From positions 581,337-645,336 of the forward strand of contig JAHBUX010000001.1 in NCBI GenBank assembly GCA_019637855.1: a stretch of 64,000 nucleotides of DNA. Direction: 5' to 3'. Positions 42,364 through 45,484 of this stretch are shown one piece after another (position 1 is the stretch's first letter; each line of letters opens with the position of its first letter). The notes beneath the pieces are model-generated. The model was not told the origin of the DNA. It did not search any database and saw only the letters and a program-made list of their open reading frames with translations. The translations under genes and the position numbers were made by a program. Source of the DNA: Bdellovibrionales bacterium. Lineage in GTDB: Bacteria; Bdellovibrionota; Bdellovibrionia; Bdellovibrionales; UBA1609.

Positions 42364-43743
42364 TCAACTAACAACGTTCAATTGAAAGTGACGAACTTCG
42401 ATGATCCGCAGTTGTTTCGACAATACTTCGATTAATGTATCGAGTGCGGCACGGTTTTTGTCGTCCAAGTTTGCATCCCATTCGTCGAGCAATAAGATTT
42501 TAGCTTTTCTCCGTTCTGCGATTTCGGTCAAAATCTGGAGTTGTAATTGCCCTGTTGAAAGCTCAGAGTTCGGCTGGGCAAAGTCCAAATCGTGACGGCA
42601 GGGTAATAGAAATGCTTGCTCACCGAGCTGCGCCTTTAGCTTTAGAATGAAGGTCGATTTACCGCTCCCGTTGGGACCGGTGATTGTAGTGCGCCCTGGT
42701 TTGGACAATATGTCGGGCAGAGCGGGAAGTTCAATTGGTCCACCATCCCGATCAGACAGGCGTAGCAATTCAAACTGGCTTTGCGGAGGGTTCGAATCAG
42801 CCGCGCGCAGGGATTTTTCTAACTCCGTGTTTAGCATTGCCGAGCGGCCGCCCAGACTCAGAACATGATTCAAAGAAGAAAGCAGTTCGTAAGCCGCGTT
42901 TAGCATCATTAACAAGCGGGGAAGAACGGCCATCAGAGCTAATTGACCAGCTTTCGTTTGTGTCTCTGAACTTAGACTGGAGTAAACATACATGGAGAGG
43001 GGAAGCATGAAGGCTAGGGCCACGACGACTGAGGAAGTGCCGGTCGAAAGAATTGAGGTCAGAGCTTTTGCACGCGCTTGAGCGAAGCGGGTTTCATATG
43101 TTTCTATATAGCGCCCCTCATTGTAGGCGTTGCCGAGCACGACGTTGTCCCAAAGATTTGAAATATGCTTAGTAAGAAAATAGCTGGCATTCTCCATGGC
43201 CTGGGCGGCCCGAGAAACTATCTTTTGATTGAACATTGTAAGCGGAATTGAAATTAGAAATCCTCCTAGCAGAACCAACGCCAGCCTGCCTTCGATAGCA
43301 TAGGCCAATGCCAAACTTTGGATGGTCAGATTCAAGGAAAGGGAAAGAGTATAATATCCCGTATCGACGGAGTCCGCGATTAGGCCTGGTCCTTCTTTTG
43401 TCAGAATAGCACTGCAGGTTCGCTTAAGATCGGTGCTGCGCCATAGAAAGGGGCGCGCATTAAAAGTTGTTGAAAAATTGCGTACAAAAGCGCGATTGAG
43501 TGCAAATTTTAAGCGAGAGAGACATAAGTTGTTCAGTATGGCCAAAAAGTAGGGAGTAAGGATGCACATTCCAAACGTAAAAAGCAGAAATATGATCGGT
43601 TTTTCTGCCTCTACATTTCGTGTGATGCGTACAATTAGATAGGTCGAAAAACCCACCAAGATCTGCTGTAGTAGCAAGGAGGTTAAACCTACATATAAGA
43701 CCGAAGTGCGAGTCACTGTTTTGCGGTCGACAACTGAAAACAT
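42364..43743 (-). CDS. ABC transporter with fused, unusually short ATPase domain (candidate RiPP exporter)
   Basis: A 459-residue protein with N-terminal membrane helices (about residues 15-290, six likely) of the ABC exporter type and a C-terminal ATPase. Motifs: Walker A TGPNGSGKST (355-364), signature LSTGQ (395-399), Walker B ILLLDE (416-421) and an H-loop-like H452. Only about 31 residues separate Walker A from the signature, far fewer than the usual ~100, so most of the helical subdomain is missing. No peptidase C39 domain is present. It lies two bases downstream of the HExxH gene and closes a three-gene cassette. It is the likely exporter of the 45-residue peptide. Confidence 0.82.
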   Translation of the reverse strand: MFSVVDRKTVTRTSVLYVGLTSLLLQQILVGFSTYLIVRITRNVEAEKPIIFLLFTFGMCILTPYFLAILNNLCLSRLKFALNRAFVRNFSTTFNARPFLWRSTDLKRTCSAILTKEGPGLIADSVDTGYYTLSLSLNLTIQSLALAYAIEGRLALVLLGGFLISIPLTMFNQKIVSRAAQAMENASYFLTKHISNLWDNVVLGNAYNEGRYIETYETRFAQARAKALTSILSTGTSSVVVALAFMLPLSMYVYSSLSSETQTKAGQLALMAVLPRLLMMLNAAYELLSSLNHVLSLGGRSAMLNTELEKSLRAADSNPPQSQFELLRLSDRDGGPIELPALPDILSKPGRTTITGPNGSGKSTFILKLKAQLGEQAFLLPCRHDLDFAQPNSELSTGQLQLQILTEIAERRKAKILLLDEWDANLDDKNRAALDTLIEVLSKQLRIIEVRHFQLNVVS

Positions 43744-43745
43744 AG

Positions 43746-44594
43746 TTAGCTCATCTTTTTGAGTTTAGTTTTATACGCCGAGAGAAGGTCAGACATGCGG
43801 TCGGAAATCAGATGTTGCAAGGTGCCAATATTTTCAATGGATTGCATCGAACGCCAGCACGCCTCCTTCAACTGCTCATTGGCGGGATGGACGCATACTG
43901 TTTGAGTAGGATTCAGCTGCATTTCGTGGCGATAAGAAAGGATCTCTATCCCCACAGCCATGCTGTGAATGACTAGATCAAGCCTGCGTTCTTGATTGCG
44001 AATCGTGGAGCGTGCGTAGTTCTCTTTTTTCGCGAGAGCTTCGTAGTCGGTATAGTGCTGATGACAGCGTTCATCGATGAAAATGAGATTGTGAGTCAGC
44101 TCGTGAATAAAGAATTCCATAAAGTCAGGTTTGCGCCAATGATCGGGTGGATTGGCCCATAGTAGTCCCACCGCGCGCGGGGTGGAACCGCCCCCACGCC
44201 CGGGAAATGCGTGGAAGAAGACAGTGTGGAAGACCAAATCGAAAAGCGAAAACATGTTACTGTGTTGGGACTTAAGCTCATGATATGCCATCTGCAGCCG
44301 GGCAAATTGAATTTCATTTGAATCGGCAGGAATATTCTTGGTGAAATCTTCTTCTTCATTTTGAAAGTATTTAAGCAATTCCGATACGGATTGCGGGCGG
44401 GATTCAAATCGTAGGGCATGTGTGGGATTCTCGGTTAGCCACGATTCGTTAATGCCGTCACCTTGCGCAATTTGGCTTTTCACAAACTGAGCTTTTAGAA
44501 CGGCTGCGCTATCAATCGCATTTGAAGATTCCTGTGAACTTGCGACAGTTAGAATATTTAGTACGTTAGTCTCTAAGCCTTTTAGAAAATACAT
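43746..44594 (-). CDS. HExxH-type putative peptide-modifying enzyme (RiPP beta-hydroxylase-like)
   Basis: A 282-residue cytoplasmic protein. H164-E165-L-T-H168 (HELTH) is a HExxH metal motif. The stretch GGSTPRAVGLLWANPPDHW about 20 residues earlier and the downstream LDLVIHSMAVGIEILSYR (H210 a possible third ligand) match my recollection of the 'HEXXH motif-containing putative peptide modification protein' family, also called aKG-HExxH-type peptide beta-hydroxylases. It lacks a signal peptide, unlike a secreted protease. It lies between a small peptide gene and an exporter gene. The alternative is an ordinary metallopeptidase that trims the peptide. Confidence 0.68.
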   Translation of the reverse strand: MYFLKGLETNVLNILTVASSQESSNAIDSAAVLKAQFVKSQIAQGDGINESWLTENPTHALRFESRPQSVSELLKYFQNEEEDFTKNIPADSNEIQFARLQMAYHELKSQHSNMFSLFDLVFHTVFFHAFPGRGGGSTPRAVGLLWANPPDHWRKPDFMEFFIHELTHNLIFIDERCHQHYTDYEALAKKENYARSTIRNQERRLDLVIHSMAVGIEILSYRHEMQLNPTQTVCVHPANEQLKEACWRSMQSIENIGTLQHLISDRMSDLLSAYKTKLKKMS

Positions 44595-44617
44595 GGAATT
44601 TCACCGTCGGTGAGTGG

Positions 44618-44650
44618 CAGGAGCCTGATAGTCAGGCTCCTGGGTTTTTT
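44618..44650 (+). terminator. strong hairpin with T-tract between precursor peptide and HExxH genes
   Basis: An 11-base-pair stem CAGGAGCCTGA/TCAGGCTCCTG (44618-44642) with TAG loop, then TTTTTT on the plus strand. It is a canonical terminator for the plus strand, where no gene is present. On the minus strand it lies between the peptide and enzyme genes and may act as an mRNA-stabilising or partial-termination hairpin that lowers enzyme expression relative to the peptide. Confidence 0.6.
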
Positions 44651-44786
44651 ACTTGTTATTATTGAACGCAATCATAACGACGGGACGTTGGTAGTCGCTC
44701 AAATTGATTTTCTGAGTGACAGCCTGGGCCTTCTTGACAGTTTCGCTCTTCACTTGTGCGGCGAGAGACTTGATTATTTTATCCAT
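44649..44786 (-). CDS. 45-residue candidate RiPP precursor peptide
   Basis: A short frame with a strong ribosome binding site (AAGGAG, seven bases before the ATG at 44786). The N-terminal ~28 residues form an amphipathic, lysine-rich helix (MDKIIKSLAAQVKSETVKK), like a RiPP leader. The C-terminal part (from about LSDYQRPVV to the NNNK end) is hydrophobic then asparagine-rich, and is a candidate core. No double-glycine motif is present. It is the first gene of a minus-strand trio with the HExxH enzyme and the ABC exporter. The product could also be a small regulatory peptide. Confidence 0.68.
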   Translation of the reverse strand: MDKIIKSLAAQVKSETVKKAQAVTQKINLSDYQRPVVMIAFNNNK

Positions 44787-44978
44787 GCATTTGCTCCTTT
44801 GTAGCAATAGGTTGTGGACAGGAATTGCAAAGCTGGTTCGCGGCTAAGAGCGTATATACGCGGTAAGCGCCCTAGAACAGGGCCTCTGATCTTAGAGTCT
44901 GGATCTAGAACTAAGATGAAGGTTCCGAACTGCCACTTTTCGGCACGAGTGGCTGTAGTGGTATCGTCGGTACATAGA

Positions 44979-45133
44979 ATGAAGAGCGCGCAGGAAATTT
45001 ACGAATCCAGCGCATGGGAAGATTATTGGTCAAAGCTCAAAAAAATGAGCCTCGGTTCACGGTGCGTGACCTCGCCTTAAACGGCCTTCGTGAATCTTTA
45101 ATGGAGCACCACTTGCGGTCCTCGCTTGGGCCA
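44979..45133 (+). pseudogene. fragment resembling a TIGR02147-type regulator, frame broken at an A7 run
   Basis: ATG 44979 begins MKSAQEIYESSAWEDYWSKLKK, and in the next frame the text continues as NEPRFTVRDLALNGLRE. Inserting one A in the seven-A run (45039-45045) would join them into one polypeptide. The joined sequence resembles my recollection of the N-terminal region of TIGR02147 family proteins (a DY...YFEERKKKNPRFSLRAFA pattern). The rest of the gene is missing and the DNA runs into a terminator and tRNA-Ser. Reported as a decayed remnant; the similarity is by eye. Confidence 0.35.
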
Positions 45134-45174: not shown

Positions 45175-45267
45175 TGGCGGAGAGGGGGGGATTCGAACCC
45201 CCGTGAGCCGTTTTAGCGACTCGACGGTTTAGCAAACCGTTGGTTTAAGCCACTCACCCACCTCTCC
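45175..45267 (-). tRNA. tRNA-Ser (GCT)
   Basis: Minus strand, 90 bases plus encoded CCA (45175-45177). Acceptor GGAGAGG/CCTCTCC, long variable arm typical of serine tRNA, and anticodon stem ACGGT...ACCGT framing loop TTGCTAA, anticodon GCT. Confidence 0.97.
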
Positions 45268-45407: not shown

Positions 45408-45484
45408 GCGCCCGTAGCTCAGTTGGATAGAGTACTTGACTACGAATCAAGTGGTCGGTGGTTCGAATCCATCCGGGCGCGCCA
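45408..45484 (+). tRNA. tRNA-Arg (ACG)
   Basis: 77 bases including CCA. Acceptor GCGCCCG/CGGGCGC, anticodon stem CTTGA...TCAAG with loop CTACGAA, anticodon ACG. By common knowledge the wobble A is edited to inosine by TadA. Confidence 0.97.

Follow-up and report, generated by a model that had tools for sequence, protein, structure and literature searches.

The window, the whole stretch of 64,000 nucleotides of a Bdellovibrionales genome analysed here, probably carries a minimal RiPP operon, in which a HExxH enzyme guided by a leader oxidizes the core of a short precursor peptide and an ABC exporter then takes the product out (Table 1). The enzyme class and the RiPP logic are already known; the system represents a new type of RiPP based on that class. 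The gene order, the conservation of the precursor, the family and fold of the enzyme, the fold of the exporter and the hairpin were directly established; against the main reading, neither the peptide nor any modification of it has yet been observed.

Organization of the operon

Direct reading of the minus strand placed the elements where the original prediction had them, that is, a 45-codon frame with AAGGAG seven bases upstream, a HExxH protein with HELTH at residues 164-168, and an ABC exporter with its ATG only two bases away from the enzyme stop. In the enzyme, STPRAVGLLWAN immediately precedes HELTH. The proposal that these genes form a RiPP cassette is supported by the TIGR04267 match of the enzyme and by the short frame being kept beside orthologues. 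The minimal set, with precursor, enzyme and exporter only, is that of the window and locus L043. The window operon has neither a protease gene nor an immunity gene, and no consensus sigma-70 promoter was found before the precursor in a sigma-70 scan. Two tRNA genes lie just 5' of the operon (window 45178-45267 and 45408-45481) as a possible integration point, and the stretch of approximately 300 bases that separates the precursor from the closest tRNA gene (window 44814-45130) is without a convincing gene.

Table 1. Features of the putative RiPP operon, with positions in the window.
Feature	Position	Strand	Basis or remark
Precursor peptide gene, 45 aa: MDKIIKSLAAQVKSETVKKAQAVTQKINLSDYQRPVVMIAFNNNK	44649-44786	-	Direct read; C-terminal motif common to precursors adjoining related enzymes
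Shine-Dalgarno AAGGAG of precursor gene	44794-44799	-	7 nt 5' of ATG
Core motif M-I-A-F-N (precursor residues 38-42)	44661-44675	-	Kept among precursors
Hairpin in precursor/enzyme gap, 11-bp stem and 3-nt loop	44618-44642	-	Folding z = -6.0
aKG-HExxH-type peptide-modifying oxygenase (putative), 282 aa	43746-44594	-	TIGR04267 match and AF2 fold
HELTH metal-binding motif (enzyme residues 164-168)	44091-44105	-	H164, E165 and H168 invariant in 29/29 relatives
Half-size ABC exporter, 459 aa, type IV fold, compact nucleotide-binding domain	42364-43743	-	AF2 model
Walker A GPNGSGKST (ABC protein residues 356-364)	42652-42678	-	Signature S-T-G begins 40 residues later
Walker B / D-loop LLDEWDANLD	42463-42492	-	Nearly invariant across exporter family

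Precursor peptide and core motif

By inference, the window precursor is divided into a leader of about residues 1-33, with a lysine-rich, helical N-terminus to which the leader role is attributed, and the core PVVMIAFNNNK. Its C-terminus, earlier described only as a distinct hydrophobic and Asn-rich end, corresponds to the conserved core (VVMIAFNNNK). Gly-Gly is absent from the window precursor as read.

The conservation on which the original prediction depended was found, as a short, usually Shine-Dalgarno-led ORF lies just 5' of the enzyme gene beside orthologues in Bdellovibrionota and also in Pseudomonadota, Actinomycetota, Cyanobacteriota and Myxococcota. Near the C-terminus these ORFs conserve the motif M-[I/V/L/A]-[A/S]-[F/Y/W/H/L/I]-[D/N/E]. 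The first four Bdellovibrionota relatives have a 40-43-codon ORF before the enzyme, ending MIMIAFD or MNMIAFD, and the precursor ends are ...NVMNMVAFD in Streptomyces, ...GPMNMLAFDA in Xenorhabdus, ...HVRMIAYDDLV in Photorhabdus, ...PLRMIAYEDM in Acinetobacter, ...LVMIAHDLEAE in cyanobacteria, ...PLRMIAWDRS in locus L049 and ...LRMISFEELIQH in Advenella. Phe-Asn is not invariant in the core (MIAIQN in loci L032 and L033, MLVLE in L043), and position 3 of the motif is Ala or Ser in nearly all precursors, with exceptions in L043 (Val) and L048 (Thr).

The motif was counted in 25 loci left out of its definition, an upstream ORF being a short one that ends no more than 500 bases 5' of the HExxH gene. 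It was present near the C-terminus of 21/80 short upstream ORFs compared with 1/2664 of the remaining ORFs in those loci, the strict form MIAF[DN] in 4/80 compared with 0/2664, and the reversed motif, used as a control, in none of the 80 upstream ORFs. The MIAF[DN] codon pattern occurs twice in the 3.37-Mb window genome, in the window precursor and inside a 556-aa ORF. Given the C-terminal conservation at the amino-acid level across phyla and the absence of the reversed motif, the 45-codon frame is assigned as the precursor; judged from its sequence it is a real gene, its translation not having been detected.

In Nannocystis poenicansa, an ORF of 143 aa (L055:5493-5924) has ten tandem 13-14-residue motif units of the type LRMASLEEVAKAG and is adjoined by two HExxH genes; it is a probable multi-core RiPP precursor, and its tandem units single out the motif as the site of action. 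The Acinetobacter trio is on a plasmid, where the precursor is annotated as a hypothetical protein. In Moraxella bovoculi, a frameshift at an A7 tract interrupts the precursor gene (L040:5671-5836), and phase variation, recoding and sequencing error are all possible causes. When 29 precursors were searched, no NCBIfam or Pfam model convincingly described them, so that annotation by these libraries would leave the family unnamed.

HExxH enzyme and proposed chemistry

The HExxH protein matches the curated HMM TIGR04267 (aKG-HExxH-type peptide beta-hydroxylase) with 41.9 bits, over a cut-off of 40, which bears out the peptide-modifying family that had been suggested for it, and the same model is matched by all 29 relatives. 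The AF2 model of the enzyme (mean pLDDT 89.9, from the 29-sequence alignment) is closest to the HExxH alpha-ketoglutarate oxygenase domain of ChlB (PDB 8s5f; Z 19.5, rmsd 4.0 over 255 residues) and to SjiH (PDB 22ob; Z 16.6), after which the next row of the fold search is an unrelated fold (Z 5.9). These structures surfaced by the fold search, and a PDB sequence search with the enzyme profile returned chance matches only. Residues invariant in the 29 relatives include G136, G143, E160, H164, E165, H168, R203, D206, H210, S211, R222 and H236, from which H164, H168 and a later His are inferred as metal ligands and the invariant arginines as candidate co-substrate binders. The protein is inferred to be a ChlB-type iron/alpha-ketoglutarate oxygenase, its use of iron and alpha-ketoglutarate and its oxidation of the peptide being part of that inference.

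Here it is proposed that the lysine-rich helical N-terminus of the precursor would act as the leader that binds the HExxH enzyme, and that the oxygenase would oxidize the core V-M-I-A-F-N. Beta-hydroxylation of Phe41 and/or Asn42 is the most likely reaction; the main alternative is alpha-oxidation with backbone scission at Ala40, a small residue. The modified product would then leave through the adjacent homodimeric type IV ABC exporter, inferred to be the carrier of the peptide product. In RiPP precursors, beta-hydroxylation by characterised members of the family takes place on Asp, His, Phe, Gln and Pro (PMC12636437, PMC13060819), oxidative cleavage of the backbone at Ala, where a small residue is required, is the reaction of PosC/PflC (PMC12636437), and M-I-A-F-N offers a suitable target for both reactions. 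Because Phe-Asn is not invariant, oxidation could also be directed at the invariant Met or the following hydrophobic residue in its place. In the absence of an operon protease, either a protease encoded elsewhere or the oxygenase would have to remove the leader.

A possible course, to which only limited weight is given, is that the oxygenase cuts the core backbone at the conserved Ala/Ser, as PosC does at ARMD, producing a leader-side C-terminal amide and a short alpha-keto peptide, of which one fragment is exported, without a protease being needed. The near-constant Ala/Ser at motif position 3, the lack of a protease in the operon and the small-residue requirement of PosC/PflC (PMC12636437) agree with scission; however, L043 and L048 have no Ala or Ser at that position, most characterised family members hydroxylate without cleavage, and a multi-core precursor would end in many pieces.

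It is improbable that the HExxH protein is a zinc peptidase cutting an unmodified 45-mer, which the ABC protein would export as such. HExxH is the classic zincin motif, the relatives of the enzyme show weak SprT/M90/Spartan similarity, and PflC hydrolyses peptides without a leader (PMC12636437), but zincin peptidases reach only Z ~5 in the fold search that retrieved the two aKG-HExxH oxygenases, the aKG-HExxH model fits every relative, and the clusters contain other oxidative and methyl-transfer tailoring enzymes.

The same genome encodes a second TIGR04267 protein (L010:6256-7095, G000:C1:122255-123094; 54 bits), its gene flanked by that of a small secreted-looking protein on one side and those of a periplasmic-binding-like protein and a histidine kinase on the other. 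It was considered as a paralogous cassette and rejected, having no ABC partner and no such precursor, and is possibly a different HExxH-based peptide signalling locus. A set similar to L010, with MFS transporters, is present in G038 (L024).

Hairpin between precursor and enzyme

The gap between precursor and enzyme folds into a hairpin with z < -2 relative to dinucleotide shuffles in 19 of the 27 loci folded, the window included; the position is kept and the sequences differ between loci. The hairpin is a probable attenuator or mRNA 3'-end stabiliser and, by analogy with other RiPP operons, likely keeps precursor expression above enzyme expression. The 45-aa peptide would be produced in excess, with the hairpin after its stop either lowering read-through into the enzyme gene or protecting the precursor mRNA.

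The frame ends just 5' of this hairpin, as attenuator leader peptides do, and could accordingly be read as a leader ORF with a regulatory function, or as conserved but non-coding DNA, with the enzyme acting on another target. This is very improbable, given the amino-acid-level conservation near the C-terminus across phyla, with the reversed motif absent, and the repetition of the motif as a protein-level tandem unit in Nannocystis. That a spurious ORF stands in chance association with an unrelated gene pair can be dismissed almost entirely, since the motif statistics contradict it and the gene order is kept across phyla, even if the window ORF is short and searches of NCBIfam, Pfam and papers gave no entry for it.

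ABC exporter

The exporter model (AF2, pLDDT 83.3) has the type IV exporter fold and is closest to MsbA, McjD, TmrAB and PCAT1 (Z 20-22). Its Pfam ABC_tran score is below threshold. In the predicted structure, the helical subdomain of the nucleotide-binding domain appears to be absent, as no helix is modelled between E377-380 and H397-410, and in the 19 exporter-family members measured, Walker A and the signature are 37-43 residues apart, compared with a canonical spacing of 98 residues in the single control ATPase found in the same loci. The family keeps Walker A, the signature S-[T/D]-G, DEWDANLD and a switch His at the extreme C-terminus. No peptidase domain was found in the 459-aa protein with Pfam, NCBIfam or the AF2 model, and the PCAT criterion of a C39 domain with a double-glycine leader is unmet.

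An exporter of the same family is downstream of the enzyme in 24/33 named loci, and in Bordetella sp. 02P26C-1 (L044:5977-8241) a single 754-aa fusion protein combines HExxH enzyme and compact ABC exporter. In two Actinomycetota loci, MFS transporters replace the ABC exporter.

Distribution and accessory genes

Relatives of the enzyme were collected from the same genus/family, order, class and phylum and then from a collection of named genomes, where the alignment-based search recovered 33 loci; the same scan of named-genome contigs with the window protein alone gave no match. The enzyme profile matches 8/141 genomes of the order, where the family is scattered. The window enzyme is 29% identical to that of a congener, whose contig is recorded as Bdellovibrionaceae, and in the cross-phylum tree it is on a long branch joined with L043. 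Low identity to the congener, scattered occurrence, the cross-phylum tree and the plasmid copies suggest, on comparative grounds, horizontal movement of the system; the placement of the window copy in the tree is unsure. The enzyme of locus L007 (G007) is accompanied by no precursor motif and no ABC partner, and was left out of the count of complete systems.

Other loci add tailoring or export genes, including a methyltransferase, JmjC/cupin, B12-dependent radical SAM and MFS, and an M3-family peptidase is 3' of the Nocardia locus. A 360-370-aa HxNVHDHDF protein (L008:7659-8744, L009:5934-7031), also present in Streptomyces, Nocardia, Rhizobium and Xenorhabdus, occurs mostly where the precursor ends Phe-Asp (Phe-Asp-Ala in Xenorhabdus) and has no Pfam or NCBIfam relative; a PDB sequence search with this cupin-like partner gave no match either. 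A second accessory protein of 343-361 aa in Bdellovibrionota clusters (L008:10128-11159, L009:3535-4620) has no Pfam or NCBIfam match. Distant TIGR04267 proteins are found behind short ORFs in Staphylococcus plasmids and Bacillus phage SPbetaL1 (L073, L074 and L075; short-ORF ends NMQIHDEE, RMQIHTKEK and VMILKEEE...), and both Staphylococcus plasmids have MFS transporter genes near the TIGR04267 gene.

Comparison with known systems

The window enzyme and the HExxH domain of ChlB (PDB 8s5f) belong to the TIGR04267/IPR026337 family and have a common fold; however, the ChlB domain is fused to a radical SAM, whereas the window enzyme is stand-alone, with 11% sequence identity, and its locus has no radical SAM or cyclophane and a different precursor. 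PflC/PosC from the pfl/pos clusters of Pseudomonas (PMC12636437) share with the window a stand-alone aKG-HExxH enzyme, an upstream precursor, a transporter and the lack of a cluster protease. Absent from the window are the nitrile-hydratase-type leaders and QQQQ-ARMD cores of the pfl/pos precursors, as well as the MNIO-nitroreductase fusion and GNAT of those clusters (PMC12636437); with its core VVMIAFNNNK, the window precursor does not meet the pfl/pos-type criterion of a C-terminal Gln repeat and an ARMD core. PesO (nitrilobacillin; PMC13060819) and BpmH (biphenomycin-like; PMC12257519) are, like the putative window system, aKG-HExxH enzymes with ribosomal precursors, but in their clusters the enzyme is paired with MNIO and other enzymes, and, unlike the window, PesO acts on a Pro that precedes an R(V/T)DN C-terminus (PMC13060819). 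The exporter resembles McjD, PCAT1 and MsbA in whole-protein fold, Walker A/B, signature and switch His, and differs from them in having no peptidase domain, no helical subdomain and a Walker A-signature distance of ~40 aa instead of 98.

Significance

The open-access papers searched, NCBIfam and Pfam contained no description of the precursor family, its core motif, the pairing of enzyme and exporter or the compact exporter, subscription papers and supplements being outside the scope, and a full-text literature search for the motif letters returned unrelated papers only. A more far-reaching and decidedly speculative reading is that of a widespread undescribed RiPP class with a near-universal M-I-A-F/Y-D/N core, whose single aKG-HExxH oxygenase would carry out the modification and also free a very short product through oxidative scission at the conserved Ala, this product being exported by a new ABC exporter subtype lacking the helical subdomain. 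If that were true, the constancy of the core would imply a target or ligand that is itself conserved, and not an arms-race toxin.

Regarding the minimal operon itself, the companion exporters depart from the textbook ATPase domain plan, and the system of one enzyme and one peptide is directly reconstitutable, whereas characterised aKG-HExxH members sit in complex clusters. RiPP cores are not usually conserved across phyla as this one is, which points to a common target or ligand.
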